A model generated the notes under the pieces. It was not told where the DNA came from. It saw only the letters and a list, made by a program, of their open reading frames with translations, and searched no databases. From a virus, in the IMG/VR virus record IMGVR_UViG_3300036401_000008, positions 1-27,153 of that record: 27,153 nt of DNA; one strand, 5' to 3'. The position numbers and the translations under genes were made by a program. Every line of letters starts with the position of its first letter. Position 1 is the first letter of the stretch. This document shows, piece by piece, positions 2,679-27,153 of this stretch.

Positions 2679-3272
2679 TCAGCTTGTCGTCACTTGCACG
2701 TAGCCAGGACTACCGGCACTTCCAGGACTACCCCAACCGCCAGTGCCACCAGGACTGCCTGGATTGCCATTCTGAATTGGCACACCAGGGCTTGTATGCC
2801 AGTAACCAGGGGCACCTGCTGCACCGGCAGCACCATACATGCCAGCAGCTCCAGCAGTGCCAGCAGCGCCTACAACAACGCTGACACCTGTGCGTGGTTG
2901 AAGCGTGCTGCTGCTGCGTTGATACGTTGCGGTACCGGCAGCTTGGAATGATGATGCACCACCAGGACCACCAGCACCGCCTGGGCCACCAGCACCTCCT
3001 GCACCGCCACATCCGGGAGGAACATAGTATGCCGCCATACCCGGCCAGTACTGACAATTAGCGGGCGTCCACACGCCAACTCCGCAAGAGCAGTTGTAAA
3101 ATATAGGATAGCTACCGGGTGTCCCGGGTGACCCGGGTGATCCTGGTGTTCCAGATGATCCTGGTGTGCCGTTCACAACATTGGCGGCGACGGCACGATA
3201 ATTATTCGGCACGATAAATGACGCAGGGCCATTGATCATGCTTGTCCCAGTTATGATGGCGAAGCCTCTCAT
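2679..3272 (-). CDS. Gly-X-Y-rich collagen-like structural protein
   Basis: A 197-residue protein built from four short Gly-X-Y blocks at about residues 35-55, 89-106, 135-158 and 169-192, separated by non-repetitive segments. Within the blocks I count twelve prolines, all at Y (GTP, GSP, GGP, GAP, GNP) and none at X. Four cysteines (C61, C63, C73, C88) sit in the segment between blocks 1 and 2, ending next to block 2. The N-terminus ([19 protein letters not shown]) is non-repetitive. The gene overlaps the collagen-like fibre gene as TGATG and is followed 2 nt later by the prolyl-hydroxylase-like gene. It could be a collagen-like triple helix or, because the blocks are very Gly-rich, a polyglycine-II sandwich like the tips of T-even gp38 adhesins. 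A fibre-tip role is inferred. Confidence 0.8.
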   Translation of the reverse strand: MRGFAIITGTSMINGPASFIVPNNYRAVAANVVNGTPGSSGTPGSPGSPGTPGSYPIFYNCSCGVGVWTPANCQYWPGMAAYYVPPGCGGAGGAGGPGGAGGPGGASSFQAAGTATYQRSSSTLQPRTGVSVVVGAAGTAGAAGMYGAAGAAGAPGYWHTSPGVPIQNGNPGSPGGTGGWGSPGSAGSPGYVQVTTS

Positions 3273-4795
3273 CAGCCCAGGCTCGCGTTGACCGCCACAA
3301 GTTGCAGCAGTGTGTGGGTTGCATCAAAGACAGAATAGCTCATCACGCTCCACTTGTTGGCGATGGTGCCGATAGTGAACGCCGTATCACCGTCGCAGCA
3401 GTAGCCGTTCGATGTCAGACCGCTGAGCGTGCGGCTGCCGGTGGCGTCCTGTTTGATGGCGATCAGCCCATCGGTGCCGACAACCGGCGTCTGCAAATAG
3501 CCAAGGGTGCGATTGCCGCCCATTGAGTTAAGCCTGAAGTTGCGGCCAATTCCCCCACTTGAACCGCCCGGCACAACAATGGTGGCGGCGTCCGTCAGCA
3601 ATACCCATGAGGTGTCGGGCGGAGGCGGCACGTTGGCGGCAACCTTGGCGTCCACATACTGCTTGGTTGCGGCGTGAAGAAGCGCCGTGGGATCTGCACC
3701 CAGCGTTAAAAAACCGGACATGGTATCGCCGGTCTTGCTCACGAAATTGTTGATGTCGGGCTGCGGGCAGGCGACAATCCACTGGCCGGGCGGGCCGGAC
3801 GGGTCAATGTAAAACACATAAAGCAGCCCGCTATCACTCTCCCACCAAAGCGTGCCGGGCAGCGGATTGGCCGGGGCAACGTCCATGATGACAATGCCGG
3901 AACCACCCGTGGTTTTGTCATCGACATATTTTTTGGTGGCGCTGTGCAAATCTATTGTTGGTGCGCCGGACAGCGTCAGCAGGCCGGTCATGACGCCACC
4001 GGACTTGGCGACCAGCGAGGTGTCGCTGGGGTGAACGTGGTCTTCCCGCGAATAGGCTGTCGCGGCGCCCGGCGCAGCCACTCCGTTCATCACCGGGTTG
4101 ACGGTGCTGGGCGCCAGACCAAGGTTGGCGCGGGCAGTGGCGTAATTTGTCAAACCGGCAAGGTTCTCCGACTTGAGCATGTCACCGGAGCCGGAACCGG
4201 CTGGTCCGGTTGCTCCGGTGGGTCCGGTAGGTCCAGGGCTGCCCTGTGGCCCGGGGGGTCCGGTCAATCCAAGGGGTCCGGTCTGCCCAGGCACCCCCTG
4301 GTCACCCGGGTCACCCTTGTCCCCCTTGTCGCCCTTGACGCCCTGCGCCCCAGTCGATCCAGAGGGGCCAGCAGCGCCGGTCGAGCCGGATGCCCCGACT
4401 GGCCCCTGGGGTCCAGGCGGTCCTGGAGGCCCAACGGCGCCAGCAGGCCCAGGCCCGCCAGACATATCAACGTATCGCTTGGTGGCCGCCTGCAAATCCA
4501 ATGATGGATCGCTAGCCAATTCCAGCACGCCGGTCATGACGCCGCCAGACAGGGCCAGCCGTGACGTGTCGCTGGGGTGGATATGATCCTCTCTGGAGAA
4601 CTGAAACGAGATGCCCGGCAGGCCCGGCGTTTGATCCATTAGCGGGATAAGCAAACCGGCGGCGCCGGGCGCCGCCACGATGCCGCCATAAGTCGTCCAC
4701 TTCTCGCCGTCCCAGGTGTACTGGGGCACACCGGATATTCCCGGCGAGGGATACCTGTCTCCGATTGCTGGCGATGCCGGAAAATCGAAGGCCAT
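3272..4795 (-). CDS. Collagen-like tail fibre protein
   Basis: A 507-residue modular fibre. Order: N-terminal module (1-38) shared with the fibre at 524-1168; [12 protein letters not shown] motif (67-78); fibre repeat SGGVMTG...RYVD (83-110); 29 uninterrupted Gly-X-Y triplets (116-202) including [15 protein letters not shown]; a second [12 protein letters not shown] (249-260); two more fibre repeats (265-292, 355-382) flanking a [13 protein letters not shown] module (315-327) also found in the 410-residue fibre; then a beta-rich C-terminal head (395-507). Collagen-like shafts form trimeric stalks in several phages, and the KGD triplets resemble the charge pairs that stabilise bacterial collagens. 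It probably forms a trimeric fibre with a receptor-binding head. It has six Y-position prolines and precedes a prolyl-hydroxylase-like gene. Confidence 0.93.
3650..3733 (-). repeat. Fibre repeat module, copy 5
   Basis: It encodes TGDTMSG...KQYVD (residues 355-382) of the collagen-like fibre. The unit is (T/S)G(D/G)xMTGxLxLxxxPTxxLxAATKxYVD. Confidence 0.85.
3920..4003 (-). repeat. Fibre repeat module, copy 4
   Basis: It encodes SGGVMTG...KKYVD (residues 265-292) of the collagen-like fibre, directly after a [12 protein letters not shown] motif. Confidence 0.85.
4190..4450 (-). repeat. Collagen-like Gly-X-Y tract, 29 triplets
   Basis: This segment encodes residues 116-202 of the fibre as unbroken Gly-X-Y triplets. 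Proline is at X in twelve triplets and at Y in six (GPP three times, GDP, GVP, GSP). The DNA shows the corresponding 9-base quasi-repeats rich in GGTCC/GGCCC. Such tracts can change length by slippage in multiples of 9 bases without breaking the frame. Confidence 0.95.
4466..4549 (-). repeat. Fibre repeat module, copy 3
   Basis: It encodes SGGVMTG...KRYVD (residues 83-110) of the collagen-like fibre, immediately before the collagen-like tract and after a [12 protein letters not shown] motif. Confidence 0.85.
4682..4795 (-). repeat. N-terminal fibre attachment module, copy 1
   Basis: It encodes residues 1-38 of the collagen-like fibre and is clearly paralogous to the first 38 codons of the fibre at 524-1168; the identical peptide [10 protein letters not shown] closes both. 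Conservation of only the N-terminus with diverged remainders is the usual sign of a shared virion-attachment domain. Confidence 0.85.
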
Positions 4796-11131: not shown

Positions 11132-12625
11132 TTATGCAGCCCTCAAAATGTTGCCCATGACCATGCCGTGGTCGAGGTACTTGATGCCGCCGCGTTCGGT
11201 GACCGCCTCTGGGATGATCTTCTCGACATCCTGCGCCATCGGGCCAATGTGCCGTGTCGAGTTTGGATCGCGCTTGAAGCTGTAGGAGTAGATCGGCAGC
11301 TCATCGTGATCGGCCTCCTGCGGACGCAGGATCGAGCCGGGCTGGTCGTGATCGGCGTCAGCGACCGCTGACGGGTGAGCGAACACCGTGCCAATCTTTT
11401 TGATGTTCTCCTTCTCGCGGCGGTCCGACATCCCCATCATGCCCATGCCGCCCTTCAACAGGCCGCCAGCGAGGCCGTAGATGCCCGCCATCTGCTGTTG
11501 ATAGTTTTGGTTCTGCTGCTGATAGATCGACATGTCCTGGCTGAAGCGATTGTTGATCAGGCCAGCGACATCGGTGGTCGGGATCTGGTTGTTCGGCGTG
11601 TTGACGAAATTCGGGTTGCTGATCTGCGAACCGCTGATCAGCGAGGAGATCTCGTTGATGGGCTGATTGCGCAGCGCATACTGCTCATTCATGTACTGGT
11701 TGCGCGCCATGTTCTGCGCGTTGAAGCTGGTCTGCGCCTGCGCCACCTGGGCGGCGAGACCGGCGTTGCCGAAGTCGGCCCGGCCTGCTGCCTGCTGGTA
11801 GTTCTGGCTCTGCGCCTGATTGGCGAATGTGCCAATGCCCTGCTGCTCGTTGTAGGCCTGCTGCTGCGCTTGGTTCTGGAAGCCCGCCTTCTGGGCCGCC
11901 ATGTCCATCATGCGCTGCTGCTCGCTACCGGCCTGACCGACAGCGGCGAAGCGGGCGTCGTTGGCCTGCCGATTGTAGTTGTCCATCGCCGACGTGTAGG
12001 CCTGCGAGCCGTAGCGGATGCCCTGGTCGGCGAGCTGCTGAGTAATGCCCTGCTTCTCGATGGCGAGCTGCGGGTTCATCCGCGCCATCAGGCTGTCCTC
12101 GACCCGCTGCCGATCGGCGCTGAAGTTGTCGGACGGCCCGTAGGTCTGCGTTACAGAGTTGGGATCGCCGTAGCCGCTGGCGAAGCTGCTCTGCTGGCTG
12201 CCGACATCGCCGAATGTCGTCGCCGCCTTGGGGACGCCGCTGATCTGATTTGGATCGGCAGCGGCTGGCGCACCCGACAGATCGATGTCTTTCGACAGCA
12301 GATTACCCAGCCGGGCGCTCTGGGTATTGGCCAGCCCGGCCATGTTGAACTTGCTGGCGTCAGTCTGGTCCTTGATGGCCTGCTGCTGCTCAGACAGCGT
12401 CTGCGTCGCCGTGAAGGTCGGAATGTTGATGTGCGTGCCGGTATACGGATCGGTCCAGTCGTAATTGCCGGTCACGTCGTAGTTCAGCGACCCATCCGGC
12501 GTGATCTGGTTGGTGTTGTTCAGGAACGCATTGCTGATCGCCGTCGCGACATTGGTGGATGTCGAGGCCGCAGCAGTCTGTCGAGGATCTGGTGCTGGAG
12601 GCGGTGACGGTGCCGACTTACCCAT
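11132..12625 (-). CDS. Virion protein with C-terminal S74 intramolecular chaperone
   Basis: A 497-residue protein. The N-terminus is Pro/Ser/Thr-rich; residues 150-340 are Gln/Asn/Ala-rich and helical; a Gly/Met hydrophobic stretch (about 380-399, GIYGLAGGLLKGGMGMMGM) precedes the last domain. Residues 400-497 match the peptidase S74 / intramolecular chaperone family: SDRREKENIKKI with the serine at 400 and lysine at 405, then LPIYSYSFK, HIGPMAQDVEKIIPEAV and GIKYLDHGM. This family trimerises beta-helical fibres and then cuts itself off just before the serine. Here it is attached to a protein lying among ejection-type genes rather than a classic fibre. It may assist trimer formation of a tail needle or internal protein. 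Its TAA stop is 1 nt before the next ATG. Confidence 0.85.
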   Translation of the reverse strand: MGKSAPSPPPAPDPRQTAAASTSTNVATAISNAFLNNTNQITPDGSLNYDVTGNYDWTDPYTGTHINIPTFTATQTLSEQQQAIKDQTDASKFNMAGLANTQSARLGNLLSKDIDLSGAPAAADPNQISGVPKAATTFGDVGSQQSSFASGYGDPNSVTQTYGPSDNFSADRQRVEDSLMARMNPQLAIEKQGITQQLADQGIRYGSQAYTSAMDNYNRQANDARFAAVGQAGSEQQRMMDMAAQKAGFQNQAQQQAYNEQQGIGTFANQAQSQNYQQAAGRADFGNAGLAAQVAQAQTSFNAQNMARNQYMNEQYALRNQPINEISSLISGSQISNPNFVNTPNNQIPTTDVAGLINNRFSQDMSIYQQQNQNYQQQMAGIYGLAGGLLKGGMGMMGMSDRREKENIKKIGTVFAHPSAVADADHDQPGSILRPQEADHDELPIYSYSFKRDPNSTRHIGPMAQDVEKIIPEAVTERGGIKYLDHGMVMGNILRAA

Positions 12626-17241: not shown

Positions 17242-18261
17242 CTAGGCCGCCGGGTTGCTGTCGTAGAAGCGCCAGTTGAACATCGGATTGACCTGGGTCA
17301 GCTCACCCATCCACCCGATAAACTGCGCAATGGCGTCCTTATCAATTGGCATTTGGCCTTCGCCCTCGAACAGCTTGTCGAAGTTTCTGTTCGGGTGATA
17401 GCGAATGCGCAACGTGTCGGTGTCGATGCCAAAGGTCGTATTGGCAGGCATGTTTGAGCCAATGCCGCCATCGAGGACGATCTCCGCCCGCTTGCCGCCG
17501 CCGATATACTCCAGCGACGAGAACCCCAACTTACCGAGAGAAGTCTCGTTGGTTTGCCGCTGGATCGCCACGGTGGCCGCGTCGTAGGCCGCGTAGTGTT
17601 CCGGCGACATGATCAGCACGTCGGCGTGGTCCTTGCCGCGTGACTGTTTTCCCATCACCACGCTGAGCATCGGCCTGACGGTGGTGGCATTGACCTGGGT
17701 GCCAAGTGCCGGAGCCATGCTCTGGGCGTCGTAGGCCTTGGTCTGCCAGATCACGTTGGCACGATCGATGCCGCCGTACAGGCCGGAGTTGGTGACGATG
17801 GGGATTGCGGTGGCGAGCCCGGTGAGCTGCTTGCCGCCGTTGGCGGTGCCGTCGCTGTAGATGGCGGCGTCCATGGCGTCTTCGAGGGCGCGTTCGGCGG
17901 CCTCGATGTAGCTGTCGTAGACGTCCATCAGCTGGCTTTCGCCTTCGTTGTTCAAGATCTCCTGCATGGAGAGGATGACGGGCACCACGACCATCTTCGG
18001 ATCGAAGTAAGCGTCATTGAACAGATCGATGGCTGGGTTGAGCAGCTGATCGTAGCCGCTGTACCACTGCGGGACGTTCTTCGCGATCTGCAGGGTCTGG
18101 CGAATGCGCGGACCAGAGTAGGTCTGCCACAAGCCTTTCCGGCGCAGCACCGAGAGCAGTGCGTTGTTGTTGGAGACGAGATCCTGATAGCTGGAGGAGC
18201 GATCCTCCAGCGTCATCGACAAGATTTGCTGATAGGCAGCATTAGCGTTGATGTTAGGCAT
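17242..18261 (-). CDS. Major capsid protein
   Basis: A 339-residue protein with the features of podoviral coat proteins of the HK97-like fold: an N-terminal helical region (MPNINANAAYQQILSMTLED...LRRKGLWQTY), a long strand and spine helix (VVVPVILSMQEILNNEG...YDSYIEAAERALEDAMDAAIYSDGT), followed by GLATAIP, then a MGKQSRGKDHADVLIMSP segment and a C-terminal YIGGGKRAEIVLDGGIG...FNWRFYDSNPAA. The 'ALEDAMDAAIYSDGTANGGKQLTGL' type sequence is a strong coat signature. It lies directly after the scaffold gene. The ribosome binding site is weak for a highly expressed gene. The only sizeable intergenic gap of the window follows it. Confidence 0.93.
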   Translation of the reverse strand: MPNINANAAYQQILSMTLEDRSSSYQDLVSNNNALLSVLRRKGLWQTYSGPRIRQTLQIAKNVPQWYSGYDQLLNPAIDLFNDAYFDPKMVVVPVILSMQEILNNEGESQLMDVYDSYIEAAERALEDAMDAAIYSDGTANGGKQLTGLATAIPIVTNSGLYGGIDRANVIWQTKAYDAQSMAPALGTQVNATTVRPMLSVVMGKQSRGKDHADVLIMSPEHYAAYDAATVAIQRQTNETSLGKLGFSSLEYIGGGKRAEIVLDGGIGSNMPANTTFGIDTDTLRIRYHPNRNFDKLFEGEGQMPIDKDAIAQFIGWMGELTQVNPMFNWRFYDSNPAA

Positions 18262-18276
18262 GGCATGTCCGGTCTG

Positions 18277-19506
18277 TTAGACGCTGCCATTCACCCGCTT
18301 CATCGCGTTCTGGATGGCGTCGCGTCGGCCAATCTTGATGTCGCTCTTGCGTGGCTGGCCGTTTGAGGGTCCGCCGGATGGTGCGCCAGAGATCGACTTG
18401 TTTGATCGGGTCTGAGCCGGTGTGCCGGTGCGGGTCTGAGCCGCTTGAGGTGGTCGGAGGCGATAGGCGCGCTGGTATGCAGTCTCGAGATCAAACCCTA
18501 GCTGCACTTCCTGCTCTATCAAGTCCCCCAGTTCATCGAACCCTGGATGCGCGTCGGCGAACTGGTCGACGGCGGACCGGGTGTTCGTGAAGACCTTCTC
18601 ATGGTGCATCTGTTGCACGTTTTGCGCAAGTGAGGCGACCATCTGGTGCAGCTGGCCAATCTGCTGGCTCTGCGCCTGCTGGCCATTCTGCGCCTGCACC
18701 ATTTTGTGCTGATCGGGGGTCTGATTGAGAATGTGATAAGCGACGTCGCGCAGCCCAATCTTGTGGCCGTCGCGGGTCGTCAGGTTCAGATTGTTGACGA
18801 TGACGTCGAGGCCGCCGACAAGATCTGACCGCAGCTTTTGCTCCATCCCGACATAATTGGTCAGCGCCCGCTGCAGCGTGGTGCCCTGCTGAGACGCCAT
18901 CTGGTGGAAGTTGCGGATGGTGTTCATCTCGTCGTGGTCGCCGCGATACTTGCGATAGGCGCCCTCGAACTCCTGCTGCATGCGGTGAACTTCGCCGCGC
19001 ACGCTCTCCGGCGCCGCCGCCCACTCCTGCTTGCCGCGCTCCGACATGCGCTGCGGCGGATCGCGGTATGGCGTGCCTTCCGGCAACTGGCGCGCTGGCT
19101 GGCCGGGCTGCTGCGCCTGCCCTGGCGCACGCTGCTCGCCGGGCTGCTGCTGCGCATCGGGCGGCCTAGCGAACCGGCCCTGCTCCCTATGCTGTTGTAA
19201 AACCTTGGGTTTTTCCTTCTCCATCGCCTCGGGCGGATTGTTGTCACCCATGCCGCGTTTGGCGGTCTTCGGCTTGTCGTCGGTGTTGGCCTTGTCGAAG
19301 GCCCGCTTGATGGCATCGCGCCGGTTGTCTGCCTTGCCGTGGCCACGATCGGCTTCGCCGGGTGGCTTCTCCGGCGCCTGCGATCCCAGCGGTGCGGGAG
19401 CGTTGGTCGGGTTCTGATTGATCACCACTTCGTTGGAAGCTGGTGCTGGTGCGGAAGGCGTGGATGCTGGTGCTGGTGTCGGTTGACTAATACCTACGTC
19501 TGACAT
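18277..19506 (-). CDS. Scaffolding protein
   Basis: A 409-residue protein before the coat gene, with the composition of a scaffold: a Pro/Ala/Gln-rich disordered N-terminus (1-130), an amphipathic helical middle (about 165-325, including GKQEWAAAPESVRGEVHRMQQEFEG broken over several helices and many Gln), and a basic C-terminus ending RRDAIQNAMKRVNGSV. A basic C-terminal helix is the coat-binding part in P22-type scaffolds. The same RRDAI motif is also near the N-terminus (62-70, RRDAIKRAF). PDAHPGFDELGDLIE-like text near 315-335 resembles the 'HPGFDEL' region of other phage scaffolds. It would build the procapsid and leave or be cut before packaging. Confidence 0.88.
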   Translation of the reverse strand: MSDVGISQPTPAPASTPSAPAPASNEVVINQNPTNAPAPLGSQAPEKPPGEADRGHGKADNRRDAIKRAFDKANTDDKPKTAKRGMGDNNPPEAMEKEKPKVLQQHREQGRFARPPDAQQQPGEQRAPGQAQQPGQPARQLPEGTPYRDPPQRMSERGKQEWAAAPESVRGEVHRMQQEFEGAYRKYRGDHDEMNTIRNFHQMASQQGTTLQRALTNYVGMEQKLRSDLVGGLDVIVNNLNLTTRDGHKIGLRDVAYHILNQTPDQHKMVQAQNGQQAQSQQIGQLHQMVASLAQNVQQMHHEKVFTNTRSAVDQFADAHPGFDELGDLIEQEVQLGFDLETAYQRAYRLRPPQAAQTRTGTPAQTRSNKSISGAPSGGPSNGQPRKSDIKIGRRDAIQNAMKRVNGSV

Positions 19507-19509
19507 GGG

Positions 19510-19836
19510 CTACCCCCTGGTGTGGGGCCGGTGACCGGCCTGATACATTTCGACGGCTTTCTTGATGGTCTGCCTACGCGCCGACTTCACCACCTTGTCT
19601 GCGGTGGCACGCACTTTCGGCTTAGGCTTCTCGGTGCCGACTTCAGTAAGGCCCAACGACTTACCGACAGCTCTGTATTGAGATTTTGACGTGTAGAAGC
19701 GCCCGTCGACCTGTTCGGTCTCGGGCATGATGTCTGATATAACGTGAGGACATGGCAGTGATGAGCGCGCCGGAGGTGTTAGCTCCCGCCTGACGCGCCA
19801 CCGTCCTGGTTCAATCTCGATCAGTTCTAGTGCCAC
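19510..19836 (-). CDS. Small conserved phage protein upstream of scaffold
   Basis: A 108-residue protein with a GTG start. The N-terminal pattern ELIEIEPGRWRVRRE...LPCPHVISD and the middle DGRFYTSKSQYRAVGKSLGLTEVG recur in small proteins that lie between portal and capsid genes of podoviruses; no function is established to my knowledge. The C-terminus contains ARRQTIKKAVEMYQ (86-99), a weak relative of the RRDAI motif in the scaffold. Its stop is 3 nt before the scaffold ATG, with AGGGGG between, so the two are probably co-translated. A capsid assembly role is inferred from position. Confidence 0.8.
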   Translation of the reverse strand: MALELIEIEPGRWRVRRELTPPARSSLPCPHVISDIMPETEQVDGRFYTSKSQYRAVGKSLGLTEVGTEKPKPKVRATADKVVKSARRQTIKKAVEMYQAGHRPHTRG

Positions 19837-19885: not shown

Positions 19886-20200
19886 TTACTTGCGCTTCTT
19901 TGCAGACCGCTCGTCGTCATCGTCGTCGTGCTTGGTCTGACCGGGCCGCGCTCCAGGCTGCCCTGGCTTTGACCCAGGCTGTTGCCCAGGCTGCTGTCCA
20001 GGGTTCGGATTGGGCTGCCCAGGGTTCTGGCCAGGATGCTGACCCGGCTGGTTTGGCTGGTTCTGTGCCTGCGCCTGCGTCTGCGTCTGCGCAGTGTTCG
20101 AACCCGGCGGCTCGTTGATGCTCTGCAGATCCGGCGGGTGGTTCGGCGACAAGCCCTGCTTGTCGCTGTGGGCCTGATCCTGGTCTTGCTTCTGGTTCAT
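19886..20200 (-). CDS. Low-complexity protein with SINEP motif and PGQ repeats
   Basis: A 104-residue protein with no fold. Residues 1-26 are Gln/Asp-rich, SINEPPGS is at 27-34, residues 35-50 are Gln/Ala/Thr-rich, residues 53-90 are PGQx repeats of roughly four residues (QPGQHPGQNPGQ, GQQPGQQPG), and the end is five Asp followed by a basic SAKKRK tail. The motif is shared with the two genes before it. The ATG overlaps the preceding gene as ATGA. It may be a flexible, multivalent tether in the virion; the sequence shows only the motif and composition. Confidence 0.72.
   Translation of the reverse strand: MNQKQDQDQAHSDKQGLSPNHPPDLQSINEPPGSNTAQTQTQAQAQNQPNQPGQHPGQNPGQPNPNPGQQPGQQPGSKPGQPGARPGQTKHDDDDDERSAKKRK
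20099..20122 (-). repeat. SINEPPGS motif copy A
   Basis: It encodes SINEPPGS, residues 27-34 of the 104-residue protein. A 20-base core (20100-20119) is identical to 20312-20331. Confidence 0.9.
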
Positions 20201-20403
20201 TTGTGCTTCCTTGGCTTTCCGTTCCCATTACGCTTTGCCTTCGTGGGCTTTGCGGCCCGCGCCCGTGGCTTGGCCTTGACGCTCTTGCGTCGCGGCTTTG
20301 GCGCCACCTCTGAACCCGGCGGCTCGTTGATACTCGGCAGCGCCCCTTCGGGGAGCTGCATTTGCTGCGCAGGCTGCGCAGGCTGTACTTGCGGGTCACC
20401 CAT
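20197..20403 (-). CDS. Small protein with SINEP motif and basic tail
   Basis: A 68-residue protein. A Pro/Gln-rich N-terminus (PQVQPAQPAQQMQ) leads to SINEPPGS at residues 24-31, followed by a strongly basic tail (about 37-68, PRRKSVKAKPRARAAKPTKAK and onward), which could bind DNA or acidic surfaces. An in-frame TTG at 20439 would give a longer form, but the ATG at 20403 has AGAGGTG about 6 nt upstream and is preferred. Its stop overlaps the next ATG as ATGA. No known family. Confidence 0.7.
   Translation of the reverse strand: MGDPQVQPAQPAQQMQLPEGALPSINEPPGSEVAPKPRRKSVKAKPRARAAKPTKAKRNGNGKPRKHK
20311..20334 (-). repeat. SINEPPGS motif copy B
   Basis: It encodes SINEPPGS, residues 24-31 of the 68-residue protein. 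It shares a 20-base identical core with copy A; the serine codons differ (AGT against AGC, TCA against TCG). Confidence 0.9.
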
Positions 20404-20435
20404 GTTTTCACCTCTGTGCGCGTGATGCGCAGCGG

Positions 20436-20837
20436 TCAACGTCTGGATGATGATTTGGTTGTGTCGCCCTCTGGCGCATTGAAAGTAAATTCCACCTCGT
20501 TGGACATTACGTCAGCATTCCTGACCGCGACCGGCACAACGTCTGGCCCGTGCCACACGCTCATGTCGATGGCGGTCGACAGTCGCCCGTCGTCCTCTAG
20601 CGTCGTCGGCTCGTCGTAGTCGGCGAACACAATGATGCTGCCGGTAAAGAAGTTGGTGCCAGAGACATAGATGCGGAAGCCCGCACTGCCCAACACACAT
20701 TTGCTAGGCTCCAGGCCTGCCACTGTCGGCTTGGGGATGTCGCCCGCTGGAAACTTTCCAGGCTCGTTGATGCTGCGCGGCGTAACCATGGAGGTTCGCC
20801 CGGGTCCAGTCGGTTCATTGATGCTCTTGATGCCCAT
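20436..20837 (-). CDS. IPT/TIG-like protein with two SINEP motifs
   Basis: A 133-residue protein. The first 30 residues hold SINEP twice (5-9 and 22-26) in a Pro/Gly-rich context. Residues 36-120 fit an IPT/TIG immunoglobulin-like domain: PTVAGLEPSKCVLGSAGFRIYVSGTNFFTGSIIVFA, then the closing strands VVPVAVRNADVMSNEVEFTF. Such domains are common on phage surfaces as decorations. The C-terminus is hydrophilic. The gene overlaps the preceding TIG gene as TAATG. I infer a virion surface or decoration protein; whether it sits on the head or the tail is unknown. Confidence 0.78.
   Translation of the reverse strand: MGIKSINEPTGPGRTSMVTPRSINEPGKFPAGDIPKPTVAGLEPSKCVLGSAGFRIYVSGTNFFTGSIIVFADYDEPTTLEDDGRLSTAIDMSVWHGPDVVPVAVRNADVMSNEVEFTFNAPEGDTTKSSSRR
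20760..20774 (-). repeat. SINEP motif copy C
   Basis: It encodes SINEP, residues 22-26 of the 133-residue TIG-like protein, followed by GKFP rather than PG. Confidence 0.85.
20811..20825 (-). repeat. SINEP motif copy D
   Basis: It encodes SINEP, residues 5-9 of the same protein. Asn and Glu use AAT and GAA where the other three copies use AAC and GAG, so the peptide is kept while codons vary. Confidence 0.85.
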
Positions 20838-21397
20838 TAGGTGAATGTCCAGTTGGAGACAGCTGTCGACACGCCGCCGGTCATGACGGTGACGACCTGT
20901 GTGCCTGCGGTCGCCTTCTTCGGCGCATTGGCGACGGTGAGCGACGTCGCCGAAACCCAGACCGTGCTTTGCGGGTTGCCATTGATGTAGACCTGGGAGG
21001 CCCGGGTAAAGCCGGTGCCGGTGACGGTGAGCGCCACGTTGCCGGGGCCAGACGCTGGCGAGGCTGGCGCAAGCCCGGTGATGGTCGCCGCCGCCGAACC
21101 GTTCAGCGACGAGGCGTGCGAGGCGTTCGGTGTCGCGGTGAAGTTGCCGAGATCCGACACAGTAACGGTCGGAGCGTAGGAGAGGCTGCCCGGCGCGGTG
21201 TACACCACCTCGGTGCCTGCGCCCTCGGAGGGGTTGCCGCCTGCGCTTGGCGCAGCGAACGCCGTCAGCGTGCCAGCCGTGCCGTCATCGATCGGCGTCA
21301 GGCCTGCGGTGGTCGGCGGTCGCATGCCGACTTGCCCGGTGAAGTTGGTTGGCGGTGTCGGGCCGTCCGGCGTCACTGTCAGTGGTGATTGAGCCAT
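20837..21397 (-). CDS. IPT/TIG-domain protein, possible capsid decoration
   Basis: A 186-residue protein. The N-terminal half is Pro/Thr/Gly-rich (TPDGPTPPTNFTGQVG) and beta-like (TEVVYTAPGSLSYAPTVTVSDLGNF). Residues about 107-186 form an IPT/TIG domain: ATITGLAPASPASGPGNVAL, then TVTGTGFTRASQVYINGN, ending TQVVTVMTGGVSTAVSNWTF. TIG domains have an immunoglobulin-like fold and occur on phage virions as decorations or adhesins. Its ATG has AGGAG 6 nt upstream. It is followed by a second TIG-like gene in TAATG overlap, so the two are probably made together. Confidence 0.85.
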   Translation of the reverse strand: MAQSPLTVTPDGPTPPTNFTGQVGMRPPTTAGLTPIDDGTAGTLTAFAAPSAGGNPSEGAGTEVVYTAPGSLSYAPTVTVSDLGNFTATPNASHASSLNGSAAATITGLAPASPASGPGNVALTVTGTGFTRASQVYINGNPQSTVWVSATSLTVANAPKKATAGTQVVTVMTGGVSTAVSNWTFT

Positions 21398-22972: not shown

Positions 22973-23497
22973 CTACATTCCTCCCAAGATCATCTTGTCG
23001 AGGTCATCCTTGCTAAGGCCACTGAGATCATCAGACGGTGACAGGCCATAATGATCCTGCAAAGCCTGATTGGCGTCACGCTCCGCCTTGCGTTCGGCAA
23101 TCTCGCCGCCTTCCCGCTGGGTCAGATAATCGGTGAACTTGTCGACCGGCGTCGCCTGCAACGGATGCGGCATTGGCGGCGAGCCCTGCAGGCGCTCGTC
23201 CAGCGATTGCGAGAAGCCGTACTTGTCGGGCTGGCGGAATGTCATATCGCCAGCGCCACGCTGCATCTGCATGGCCTGCTCCATCACGTCGGACCAGCTG
23301 CTCGGTGCCTGTTGGGCACCCTCAACAATGACTGGCTCCTGCGTCTGGAAGCTGTGCGGGCCGGTTGGCCGCCGGTCTTCGATGTTCGTCGAGATGGCGG
23401 GCATCCTGGCCAGCGCCTGCTGCTCCAGGCCGCCAGTGATCGGCAGCGCATACTGGTCGCGCCGCGCCAGATTGCCCATCACCCATCTGCCGGGCAT
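22973..23497 (-). CDS. Unrecognised 174-residue protein after the portal
   Basis: It starts in TGATG overlap with the portal stop. The N-terminus (RWVMGNLARRDQYALPITGGLEQQALARMP) is followed by a polar middle with DVMEQAMQMQRGAG and FRQPDKYGFSQSLDERLQG, then a charged helix (FTDYLTQREGGEIAERKAERDANQALQDHYG) and a C-terminal LSPSDDLSGLSKDDLDKMILGGM. Charged and helical, it could be an assembly factor or a small internal protein. No family is recognised; coupling to the portal implies a structural or assembly role. Confidence 0.78.
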   Translation of the reverse strand: MPGRWVMGNLARRDQYALPITGGLEQQALARMPAISTNIEDRRPTGPHSFQTQEPVIVEGAQQAPSSWSDVMEQAMQMQRGAGDMTFRQPDKYGFSQSLDERLQGSPPMPHPLQATPVDKFTDYLTQREGGEIAERKAERDANQALQDHYGLSPSDDLSGLSKDDLDKMILGGM

Positions 23498-25830
23498 CAG
23501 TGCCCTCCGCTGCCGTTGGGTCCAAACCCGTTCTGCAGCTTCAGCGCCGCCGCAGCCGACGCATGCTGCGCCTTCTCGGCGTTCTGTGCCCGCTGGTCTA
23601 TCGCCTTCTGCATGTCGGCGCTGGCCTTGAAGCGGGCGATCTCCATCTCCTGCGCCTTGCCCGCCATGTCGGCTTGGTGCGCCTCGCGGCTCTCCATCGC
23701 CTTCTGGTTCTGCACCGCGATCTTGGCTTGGTCGGACTGGATCGTGCCCTGCTGCTTGCTCTGCGCGATCTGGATCTGAGTGCTCAGCTCCATCTGCTTG
23801 TGATCGTCGGCCTGCTTCATCTTGGCCGCCTCCAGCGCACCGTCCTGCTGGTTCTTCGTCATCGCCGCCTGCTGCTTCATGTTCTCGATCTGCAGCGCGG
23901 TCTTGGCGTTGATCTGGGCCGGGTTGTTGTCCTGCTGCGGCTGCTGACCCTTCTGCTCCATCTGCTGGACGAGGTCATCGATAGCGCCATCGAGCGTGCG
24001 ACCGGCGCGGTATGGCGCGACTGCGAACTTCAGCAGCTCACCGCAGAACGATGCGGTCTGCGGCTCCGCCGTGATCATCATCGACAATTGCTGGAGCAGC
24101 GGACCTAGCACCGAGATGAACTCGCCACGGCGTTTCTTCTCCGCGTTCTCGTCCTGCTGGATCGTGCTGTCCGTTTCGATGTCCAGCACGAATGATTTGG
24201 TACGACTGCCCTTGATGAACTGAAGCACCTGTTCGATGGTCGGCTTTTGCGCCAGCTTCTGGATCGCGTGGTTGGCACCTTCCTGCACCTGTTGAAATTG
24301 CTGCATGGCCTGCTGGGCCGCCTGCGGGTTCTGCTGACCCATCTGCTGGATCTGCGGTGACTGCATCAGCATCTGCGCCTGCTGTTGCTGCTGCTGCATC
24401 TGCTGCTGGATCTTCTCGATCTGCTTTCGGATCAGATCCTGGGTCGGCAGCTGGGTCTGCGACATCGCGATGATGGTTTCAGGCTTGAACTTCTCGGTGA
24501 TGATCTCGGCGGTGATCTCCACCATGTCGCGGGCGACGCGCACCATCTCACGCTGTTTGTCGCGCACGCGAACAGAGCCATAGTCGGTCTTCAGCTCCTG
24601 GGCGCCCAGCGTCTCGTTGGGATCGGTCTCGCCGCGCATGATGTCGGACAGGCCGGTGATGGCGTAGATGTCATCAATGACTTGCTTGCGCAGCGCCACC
24701 AGCGCCGTGATGGTCTGCGCGATCATGTCGATCGGCAGCCAGATGATGACTTCCTTGCTGCCGCCGAAGGCCGCCCAGTTGCTGATGGGGACGAGTACTC
24801 GTCCCGGCGTCTTGATCTTGATGGCGGCCTGGATAGCGTCGCTCAACTCGGCACCGCCAGCCGGGTAGAAGCCCTTGACCTCCAGCGCATCACTGAGCGC
24901 ATGAATGCGGCCCGTCAGCGTGTTGATCTCATCGAGCTGGTCCTGGTACTGCAGCGCGTCCGGCACCGGCACCAGTGAGCCACGCTGCGTCGTGCCGTAG
25001 GCGGGCTTCGGGCAAGGGAAATAGTTTTGCAAGTCGAGGTGCGGATCGTCCTCGTCCAGGATGTCTTCGCAGCCCTTGGCGACCCAGATCACCCGCTCGC
25101 TGTTCTTGTCCCAGATCTCCCAGAACTTGGCGCGCTCGCGGTTGTCGGCGCCGCCAACGGAGCGGCTCTCCTTGTCGACGCTGTACTCGGCCTTCTGGTA
25201 TTCGTCGCCGCTGCTGTCGTGGAAACGCTTGCGGGCCTGCGTCCTGGTCAGGTAGCTCGCGCCAGCCACCCACCACACCTCGGTCCAATTGCGTGAGATG
25301 CTGTGCAGGAAGTCGCGCCTATTCTTGAACTCCAGGCAGACCTTCTCGTGCGAGTGATAGGTGTCGGCGTCGTCGTCCTTCTCTTCGTACCGGCACCACG
25401 GCACGCCGCGACCGTTCAGCGCCAGATCGTCGCGCACCAGGATCATGATGTCATCGATGCGGGCCAGATCGAACGCCACGATACAGCACCGCTCGATTAT
25501 CTCGGATGACTGCTGCGGCACCGGACGCCGGTCCTTGAACTTGGGGACGACGACCGGGATCGGCGGCTTGGCGTAGATGCTGGGCTTGATGACTTCCATG
25601 TTCGCCCAAAACATTTGAAACTGTTTGTCGCGGGCGAGGCCGGTCAGCCGGTCCAGGCTGGCATACAGCTTGTCGATCTTGTCGCAGTGATCGTTCCAAT
25701 TCTTGTAGGCGTCTTCGCTCTCCTCCAGGATGTTCAGCCACGCCTTGGCTGATCCCTTGGGCTGCGCCGCTGGCGTGTACTCCAGATCGTCGTGGCGAAG
25801 ATCCTCATCGTTCGGTTTGTCTTCAGCCAT
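23497..25830 (-). CDS. Portal protein
   Basis: A 777-residue protein of P22 gp1-like size and style. The N-terminal helical region (about 25-90, AWLNILEESEDAYKNWNDHCDKIDKLYA) is followed by FQMFWANMEVIKPSIYAKPPIPVVVPKFKDR, a segment typical of podoviral portals. The stem and crown follow (GVPWCRYEE, LPIDMIAQTITALVALRKQVIDDIYAITGLSDIMRGETDPNETLGAQELK across 365-420). Residues 470-520 are extremely Gln-rich (QQQMQQQQQQAQ). The C-terminal 150 residues are a long helical Gln/Lys/Ala region, as in the portal barrel. Twelve copies would form the DNA entry vertex. ATG 25830 has GGGTGG upstream and overlaps the preceding small gene by 8 bases. Confidence 0.92.
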   Translation of the reverse strand: MAEDKPNDEDLRHDDLEYTPAAQPKGSAKAWLNILEESEDAYKNWNDHCDKIDKLYASLDRLTGLARDKQFQMFWANMEVIKPSIYAKPPIPVVVPKFKDRRPVPQQSSEIIERCCIVAFDLARIDDIMILVRDDLALNGRGVPWCRYEEKDDDADTYHSHEKVCLEFKNRRDFLHSISRNWTEVWWVAGASYLTRTQARKRFHDSSGDEYQKAEYSVDKESRSVGGADNRERAKFWEIWDKNSERVIWVAKGCEDILDEDDPHLDLQNYFPCPKPAYGTTQRGSLVPVPDALQYQDQLDEINTLTGRIHALSDALEVKGFYPAGGAELSDAIQAAIKIKTPGRVLVPISNWAAFGGSKEVIIWLPIDMIAQTITALVALRKQVIDDIYAITGLSDIMRGETDPNETLGAQELKTDYGSVRVRDKQREMVRVARDMVEITAEIITEKFKPETIIAMSQTQLPTQDLIRKQIEKIQQQMQQQQQQAQMLMQSPQIQQMGQQNPQAAQQAMQQFQQVQEGANHAIQKLAQKPTIEQVLQFIKGSRTKSFVLDIETDSTIQQDENAEKKRRGEFISVLGPLLQQLSMMITAEPQTASFCGELLKFAVAPYRAGRTLDGAIDDLVQQMEQKGQQPQQDNNPAQINAKTALQIENMKQQAAMTKNQQDGALEAAKMKQADDHKQMELSTQIQIAQSKQQGTIQSDQAKIAVQNQKAMESREAHQADMAGKAQEMEIARFKASADMQKAIDQRAQNAEKAQHASAAAALKLQNGFGPNGSGGH

Positions 25831-25981: not shown

Positions 25982-26235
25982 CACTTCACCACGCGAACTG
26001 TGCGCTCCTCTTTTTCCTTCGCCTCTCGTCTGGCTTCGCTGAGACAATGCTCCACCATCTCCAACGCATGCATCAACTTTCGGGCGCTCTTCTTACAATT
26101 GTATGTGGATGAGCCATGATCACTGAATAGGATCGAGAACTTCAAATCGGCCACCTCCAGCTCAAGCTTGGCCAGATGCTCAACAACATCCATTAAATAA
26201 CTTGCCGTCGTTACGTTAACTGTCTTGTCACTCAC
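25981..26235 (-). CDS. Small helical protein after terminase large subunit
   Basis: An 84-residue protein from a GTG that overlaps the terminase stop as GTGA; GGAGGG lies 8 nt before the GTG, which decides the start over a later ATG at 26193. The core is helical with heptad-like leucines (MDVVEHLAKLELEVADLKF) and a charged C-terminal helix (HCLSEARREAKEKEERTVRVVK). Two cysteines are present. Function unknown; it may be a small regulator or a packaging accessory. Confidence 0.72.
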   Translation of the reverse strand: MSDKTVNVTTASYLMDVVEHLAKLELEVADLKFSILFSDHGSSTYNCKKSARKLMHALEMVEHCLSEARREAKEKEERTVRVVK

Positions 26236-27153
26236 AGCTGCAACCCTCCACGACGTGGCTCCGGCGGTGGCGGGATTATCCAGCCCTCCTGCTTCGGCAC
26301 CACAACTTCACGGATCTTCGCGCCCTTCCAAGCCAGCGCCAGATAGCGAAAGGAGGCCGCCGGATGTGCTGTCCAGTCGTGAACGTCACTGGCTCTGAAG
26401 GCCTTCTTCTCATCATCCCATTCTCTTCTGTATTGTTCCAGCGCCGCAATGCCTGTTTCCTCGGTGCGGGTGTGAAACACGCACAGCGGCAGCAGCCTGC
26501 GCGCCGCGTTGATGCCGTCCTGGAACGAGGCGAACGTCACCAGCATCGGGTTCAGGCGGAAGCCCTGCATGGTCTCGACGCGGGTCTTGCCGGAGCCCCA
26601 CTCCTTCACCTTGGCATCGTGCGGCACATAGTCGGTGCCGTGCTTCCAGCCGTACTTGGCGCAACGCTGCTCGATCACCTCGGCGAAATGCTCGACACCG
26701 ACGCCACTCGCCGCGTAGTGATCGAGCAGCACGACCTGGGCGCCCTGGGTCTGGAAGAACCAGATCGAGGTGTCGTCGGTGACGCCAATGTCCCAGGCGC
26801 AATCGACTGGCTCTGCCGGGTCAGCCTCGACCTCCAGCACGCGGCCCTCGTTGCGCACTTGCGCCATCTCCAGCGCGAAGTACGCGCCCAGGATCGCAGC
26901 GTTCCAGTCGCAGAAGTACTCCTGGCGATATTGCGCGGTGCCGACGTCGACACCGTACAGCGCCTGATACTCCCTTAAGGTTTCGGCAAGAGCTTCTGCG
27001 CTGACTGCGCCGGTATCTTCGGCGGTGAGCAACTCGGCGAACCACTCGCGTGACTGAGTGGCATGGTGAAACATTTCGAGCGCATGATTGCGTCCCCGGG
27101 GAGTAGAGATGAACGTCGCCCAGCCGTTGTTCTCTTCGACCATGGGCCGGTGG
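26232..27153 (-). CDS. terL: Terminase large subunit, 5' end outside window
   Basis: The frame is open to the right edge, so only the last part (about 306 residues) is seen; residues HRPMVEENNGWATFISTPRG at the edge include the ATPase coupling motif FISTPRGRN (motif III). The nuclease domain follows: YRQEYFCDWNAAILGAYF, then the acidic motif CAWDIGVTDDTSIWFF, where an aspartate is expected to bind metal, and VPHDAKVKEWG with another conserved aspartate, before the C-terminal FRYLALAWKG and a Pro/Arg tail. Terminase large subunit pumps DNA into the procapsid through the portal and cuts the concatemer. The small subunit is not in the window and is probably upstream. Confidence 0.93.
   Translation of the reverse strand, partial: HRPMVEENNGWATFISTPRGRNHALEMFHHATQSREWFAELLTAEDTGAVSAEALAETLREYQALYGVDVGTAQYRQEYFCDWNAAILGAYFALEMAQVRNEGRVLEVEADPAEPVDCAWDIGVTDDTSIWFFQTQGAQVVLLDHYAASGVGVEHFAEVIEQRCAKYGWKHGTDYVPHDAKVKEWGSGKTRVETMQGFRLNPMLVTFASFQDGINAARRLLPLCVFHTRTEETGIAALEQYRREWDDEKKAFRASDVHDWTAHPAASFRYLALAWKGAKIREVVVPKQEGWIIPPPPEPRRGGLQL

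Follow-up and report, generated by a model that had tools for sequence, protein, structure and literature searches.

The peptide SINEP recurs in small proteins encoded beside the head genes of a large clade of uncultivated viruses. Across the sequences compared, its five residues are fixed and it stays linked to the TIG protein gp186 and to the head genes, even as the protein around it changes. On this comparative evidence, S-[I, rarely L/V]-N-E-P, often extended to SINEPPGS, is probably a clade-specific docking motif, which would load exchangeable accessory proteins onto a shared partner on the head. A preliminary description had noted the peptide in three consecutive genes of one virus; that observation is correct and holds far more widely. 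We found no mention of the motif in the literature searched.

The window, i.e. the whole stretch of DNA analysed, is a virus record of 27,153 bases with its head-gene block on the minus strand (Table 1). In a scan of all six frames, SINEP occurs just four times, each time on the minus strand and in the coding frame of one of three adjacent genes, compared with 0.0035 expected by composition in the 8,689 residues of the window's proteins. Their places and residue numbers agree with the preliminary description, given an ATG start at 20403 for the middle gene (68 residues). The alternative TTG-started reading of 80 residues (20197-20439) is probably too long, since relatives share a similar M-x-GDP start. 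Also as described are the SINEPPGS extension in the basic and PGQ-rich proteins, the codon differences between copies read from the window sequence (AAT/GAA against AAC/GAG; AGT against AGC), and a run of 20 bases common to two copies, ATCAACGAGCCGCCGGGTTC. The spacing of 17 residues between copies 1 and 2 is preserved in many relatives. Neither the three SINEP carriers nor gp186 has a match in PHROGs.

Table 1. Head-gene block and SINEP copies in the window.
Feature	Position	Strand	Remarks
Large-terminase-like gene	26232-27152	-	Named by place and order in relatives; no match in Pfam
Portal protein, phrog_12082	23497..25830	-	Assigned by PHROGs
174-residue protein and 520-residue protein		-	In the head-gene block with portal and gp186
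gp186, 186-residue TIG protein	20837..21397	-	Conserved MAQS.LTVTP..PTPPTN arm and TIG domain
TIG133, 133 residues	20436..20837	-	Disordered N-terminal arm with two SINEP; C-terminal IPT/TIG (Ig-like) domain
SINEP copy 1	20811..20825	-	TIG133 residues 5-9; AGC ATC AAT GAA CCG
SINEP copy 2	20760..20774	-	TIG133 residues 22-26; AGC ATC AAC GAG CCT
68-residue SINEPPGS protein	20197..20403	-	Lys/Arg-rich tail; ATG start at 20403
SINEPPGS copy 3	20311..20334 (SINEP 20320-20334)	-	68-residue basic protein, residues 24-31; SINEP codons AGT ATC AAC GAG CCG
104-residue PGQ-rich SINEPPGS protein	19886..20200	-	DDDDDE..KKRK end
SINEPPGS copy 4	20099..20122 (SINEP 20108-20122)	-	104-residue PGQ-rich protein, residues 27-34; SINEP codons AGC ATC AAC GAG CCG
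phrog_21669 protein	19510..19836	-	Directly downstream of the SINEP genes
Scaffold-like protein, phrog_25516	18277..19506	-	Annotated as virion structural protein; candidate partner
Major head (coat) protein, phrog_9953	17242..18261	-	Candidate partner

The motif pattern played no part in the fetching of relatives. Scanning with the coat protein gave at least 80 loci, and a scan with a distant coat protein at least 80, partly overlapping with the first; six further loci came from a search with TIG133. Restricting these to non-redundant loci with the whole portal-to-scaffold stretch left 30 complete intervals, at most three of which (L003, L005, L007) stem from the TIG133 search. Exact SINEP is found once or more in all but one of the 30; the exception, L212, has SLNEP. 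Distinct exact copies in these intervals total 48, against an expectation of 0.013, and single-mismatch neighbours are nearly missing (SLNEP three times, SVNEP once, and four singletons). An independently chosen set, 55 distinct loci selected by gp186 and having enough downstream sequence, gave the same picture: 53 have SINEP, two have SVNEP and none has neither. Here, 82 of 84 motif copies fall within the first 1.5 kb downstream of gp186, and antisense copies number zero. Each of the 24 records of 40-45 kb carries one to three copies of the pattern, and the reversed-pattern control gave zero. SINEP is also the most re-used 5-mer of the region, occurring in 19 mutually dissimilar contexts (seven for the next unrelated 5-mer). 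Among the relatives that keep these genes, none has lost the motif; all have it in exact or near-exact form.

Outside the clade, matches look like chance. A scan of viral sequences for SINEPPGS matched 91 stretches in which serine is encoded by AGY and 17 in which it is encoded by TCN. Of the matches examined, all except four (L099, L190, L197 and L202) could be tied to the clade through the coat, scaffold, portal or an identical carrier; these four lack a coat match and were taken as chance. Across bacterial and archaeal genomes totalling 257 Gb, the AGY form of the pattern occurs at 15 scattered places. These matches fall in scattered taxa and mostly in short frames, and we took them as the chance level. 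Five related isolates (RHph_I3_18, ppBjS10J-1, Mwe-JY13, Mx8 and BUCT555) gave no SINEP in the coding frames read, and a single intergenic pattern match in BUCT555 was put down to chance. Using tblastn, TIG133 has no match in phage isolates, and gp186 has none among 50,697 phage isolate records; we found no isolate of the SINEP clade. Rhizobium phage RHph_I3_18, Mx8 and related isolates do have homologous coat and portal proteins (for RHph, 59% and 48%, respectively), but no gp186 match, and the coding frames examined in them contain no SINEP protein. A protein resembling phrog_21669, as judged by eye, is found at the same place in the SINEP-less phages RHph_I3_18 and ppBjS10J-1.

We collected 136 distinct reading frames carrying the motif, the N-termini of which are guesses. 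A TIG domain is present in 82 of them, and in 114 of 114 copies the motif is N-terminal of this domain. Among other carriers are proteins with extended Lys-rich tails, with a Rho_N/HeH-like domain (weak Pfam match, 0.034) or with acidic-basic tails, and peptides of 29 residues. The motif lies anywhere from residue 3 to well over 100, is often internal, and is present in one or two copies per protein. Its surroundings have a disorder propensity (TOP-IDP) of 0.293, compared with 0.122 in the other proteins of the region. A basic C-terminus (three or more Lys/Arg among the final ten residues) is seen in 118/136 carriers, and the very last residue is basic in 82% of carriers versus 11-19% of other proteins; in TIG133, a short basic end follows the TIG domain. 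As a short conserved peptide that occurs in non-homologous contexts and lies within disordered sequence, SINEP resembles a protein short linear motif (SLiM) in these two respects.

AlphaFold2 (20 sequences) predicts a confident Ig-like β-fold for residues 38-120 of TIG133. The pLDDT is low over most of residues 1-30, so that both motifs would lie in a floppy arm. The best Foldseek matches are ordinary TIG domains in the PDB (E = 5.6e-5). In Pfam, the TIG133 protein of the window scores below the cut-off for IPT/TIG (PF01833; 0.049), whereas relatives score above it (1.5e-9 and 5e-7). When TIG133-type proteins were retrieved with a TIG-domain profile, which was built from SINEP carriers but from the TIG columns only, S[ILV]NEP was present in 24/24; the gp186-type proteins retrieved with it separated cleanly, 30/30 being free of SINEP. 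One carrier, of 591-631 residues, bears both SINEP and SINQP in the arm, and its C-terminal half matches GH43 in Pfam (1.2e-10). It is encoded between portal and scaffold (L135:5890-7662; also L186, L187 and L188) and represents one phage type only, seen in three near-identical contigs.

Among the genes of the block, gp186 stands out. Proteins of this type are encoded in all 30 complete intervals, nearly always directly upstream of the SINEP genes, and none of the 30 contains SINEP itself; S[IV]NEP is nearby in 55/55 of the gp186-selected loci. AlphaFold2 predicts a confident TIG domain behind a floppy, highly conserved arm. The structure matches of this domain are ordinary TIG domains, and a gp186 profile found no match among PDB sequences. 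Because gp186 is nearly always directly upstream, is found in this clade only and is itself free of the motif, it is the leading candidate for the receptor. We favour gp186 or the coat protein as the putative receptor; the scaffold is possible. Docking to the capsid or portal, as put forward in the preliminary description, remains an inference, and the data point to the adjacent gp186 as a further candidate partner that it had not named. The co-occurrence of gp186 and SINEP throughout the clade could also be simple co-inheritance. That SINEP might dock onto the gp186 TIG domain by β-augmentation is a thought only. The gp186 arm itself (residues 1-30, MAQS.LTVTP..PTPPTN) is conserved across 38 gp186 proteins despite its predicted disorder, and is possibly a second docking peptide.

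How might such a motif work? SINEP, located in the disordered arm of small accessory proteins encoded beside the head genes, would bind to one conserved, multi-copy partner on the prohead or virion head. One to three different proteins per genome would then be loaded onto the particle via the same socket, delivering TIG, DNA-binding-like, basic or enzymatic parts. The basic C-terminal tails may provide a second binding end, for nucleic acid or the cell surface. We lean towards the outer surface of the head as the location of this cargo, since it is mostly Ig-like and in one case includes a glycoside hydrolase family 43 domain, and because of the position of the genes in the head gene block. 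A more far-reaching version, to which we give slightly less than even credence, is a plug-in code of one invariant tag and one head socket, by which each lineage would mount its own unrelated proteins (Ig-like, DNA-binding or glycosidase) and accessories would evolve as interchangeable modules. If docking is indeed the function, SINEP would be a natural, genetically portable tag of 5-8 residues for loading proteins onto a phage head, kept across a large uncultivated clade with cargo that ranges from Ig-like domains and Lys-rich tails to a protein containing a glycosidase domain. Small genes next to the capsid genes that otherwise look like orphans would then form part of one system and could be annotated by the rule of S[IL]NEP next to gp186, and peptide pull-downs would make the receptor testable.

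Several known systems invite comparison. The internal proteins of phage T4 are diverse and share only a capsid targeting sequence (CTS), which sends them to the head core (PMC3012670). Like the CTS, SINEP is a short peptide that is the sole common part of diverse, small, exchangeable phage proteins; unlike the CTS, it has a different sequence, is often internal rather than N-terminal, occurs once or twice per protein and is attached to mostly Ig-like cargo. T5 pb10 is a small protein consisting of an N-terminal capsid-binding part, a proline-rich linker and a C-terminal Ig-like domain (PMC5292684), an order matched by the arm and Ig-like domain of TIG133. However, the anchor of pb10 is a folded α-helical domain rather than a five-residue peptide, and is carried by one gene. 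T4 Hoc has a conserved capsid-binding element that carries variable Ig-like domains (PMC10385173). The Hoc anchor is a folded C-terminal domain, and Hoc is not known to have a peptide tag shared by several proteins. For SINEP carriers, gene position and Ig-like fold are no more than suggestive of binding to the outer capsid surface in the manner of pb10 or Hoc. The best explanation by analogy is that SINEP works like the head-targeting and decoration anchors of T4 CTS, pb10 and Hoc, yet belongs to none of these groups, as its position and sequence differ and common ancestry was not found.

The T4 comparison also suggests the strongest alternative. SINEP may be an internal packaging tag, bound by the scaffold or the inner coat surface in the prohead, that carries small proteins, often basic ones, into the head together with the DNA and is functionally like the CTS. 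The logic of diverse proteins sharing only a targeting peptide would be the same as in T4 (PMC3012670), and the basic C-terminal tails, the Lys-rich and Rho_N/HeH-like cargo and the location of the genes shortly before the scaffold all agree with it; the basic tails and the HeH/Rho_N-like cargo in fact fit an internal, DNA-associated location as well as they fit an external one. On the other hand, cargo of the Ig-like and GH43 kinds is harder to explain inside a head, the motif, unlike the T4 CTS, is often internal in the protein, and a search of 10 records found neither an S78 nor a Clp-type prohead protease (the search for S77 had no positive control). On balance, we consider an internal tag unlikely, though deserving of serious attention.

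We give considerably less weight to the idea that the carriers dock to a conserved bacterial partner, for instance a surface or replication factor, instead of the virion. The peptide alone cannot tell the partner, and small disordered phage proteins often target their hosts. Against this stand the close linkage of the motif to gp186 and the head-gene block and the chance-like scatter of bacterial SINEPPGS matches, which argues that no widespread host peptide of exactly this sequence is being mimicked.

A maturation protease cleavage site is very improbable: I-N-E bears a superficial likeness to [LI]-x-E, the consensus of the T4 prohead protease, but most proteases would be blocked by the fixed proline after the glutamate, the 10 records showed neither an S78 nor a Clp-type enzyme, and TIG133 would have two tandem sites 17 residues apart.

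Hardly any credence, finally, can be given to the notion that the motif reflects an element in the DNA or RNA, or a mini-duplication in which the peptide has no function, with the 15-24 bp sequence itself being conserved or copied. We analysed codons and flanks in 41 contexts that do not resemble each other, taken from loci that had been fetched through their similarity to TIG133 or the coat, without the motif pattern. Serine counts from an AGY-selected set were replaced by those from this pattern-free set, the query having biased the former. The contexts were picked as exact SINEP, and constancy of the residues in them therefore follows from that choice; a fair test is provided by the counts per locus and per domain given above. 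Bases within the motif are more alike than codon usage predicts (0.862 vs 0.78 ± 0.011), and two of the window copies share the 20 bases mentioned above, both of which speak for this reading. However, there is synonymous variation at all five codons, with serine spread over both codon families (AGC 30, AGT 4, TCN 7), the motif is always in the sense direction and in open frames, and near-miss peptides are almost absent; conservation of the DNA without codon variation was not seen in relatives. The DNA/RNA-element reading is thus largely refuted. The flanks, both upstream and downstream, agree with each other at 30-32% of bases and 9-13% of residues, which is near the level of unrelated sequences. 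That the flanks are unrelated while serine uses both codon families argues that selection acts on the peptide, and together with near-universal retention this part of the preliminary description is strongly supported. Given the excess likeness of the motif DNA, some copies go back to duplication or exchange, as suspected in the preliminary description. Selection on the peptide and partial duplication are both true at once.

Some further features of these genomes deserve mention. The longer carriers of L152, L159, L166, L224 and L237 have common disordered modules upstream of SINEP, namely DLEDITGNPGHR.V.P.APA.SIN (with a SIN-x-P variant) and TRDNV.P.IPS..GIVDP.SLGM. A second repeated short motif occurs near the SINEP genes, in proteins of 47-87 residues made of G-x-P-V-x-x-V units (MGMPVVTVAAGGMPVVDVT...GLPVTEAANGKGVAVTKV); these are encoded in the portal-scaffold intervals of L017, L081, L225, L246 and L224, and at L254:2343-3254. 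In Microcystis phage Mwe-JY13 and in L224, similar units head a longer protein. Elsewhere in the window, a 2OG-Fe(II) oxygenase (2107-2676; Pfam, 6.1e-14) adjoins two collagen-like G-x-y proteins (2679-3272 and 3272-4795; Pfam Collagen, 2.2e-4 and 5.1e-14), and is perhaps a phage prolyl hydroxylase acting on the phage's own collagen-like fibres. A protein of 497 residues (11132-12625) has a C-terminal Peptidase_S74 (intramolecular chaperone) domain (5.6e-12).
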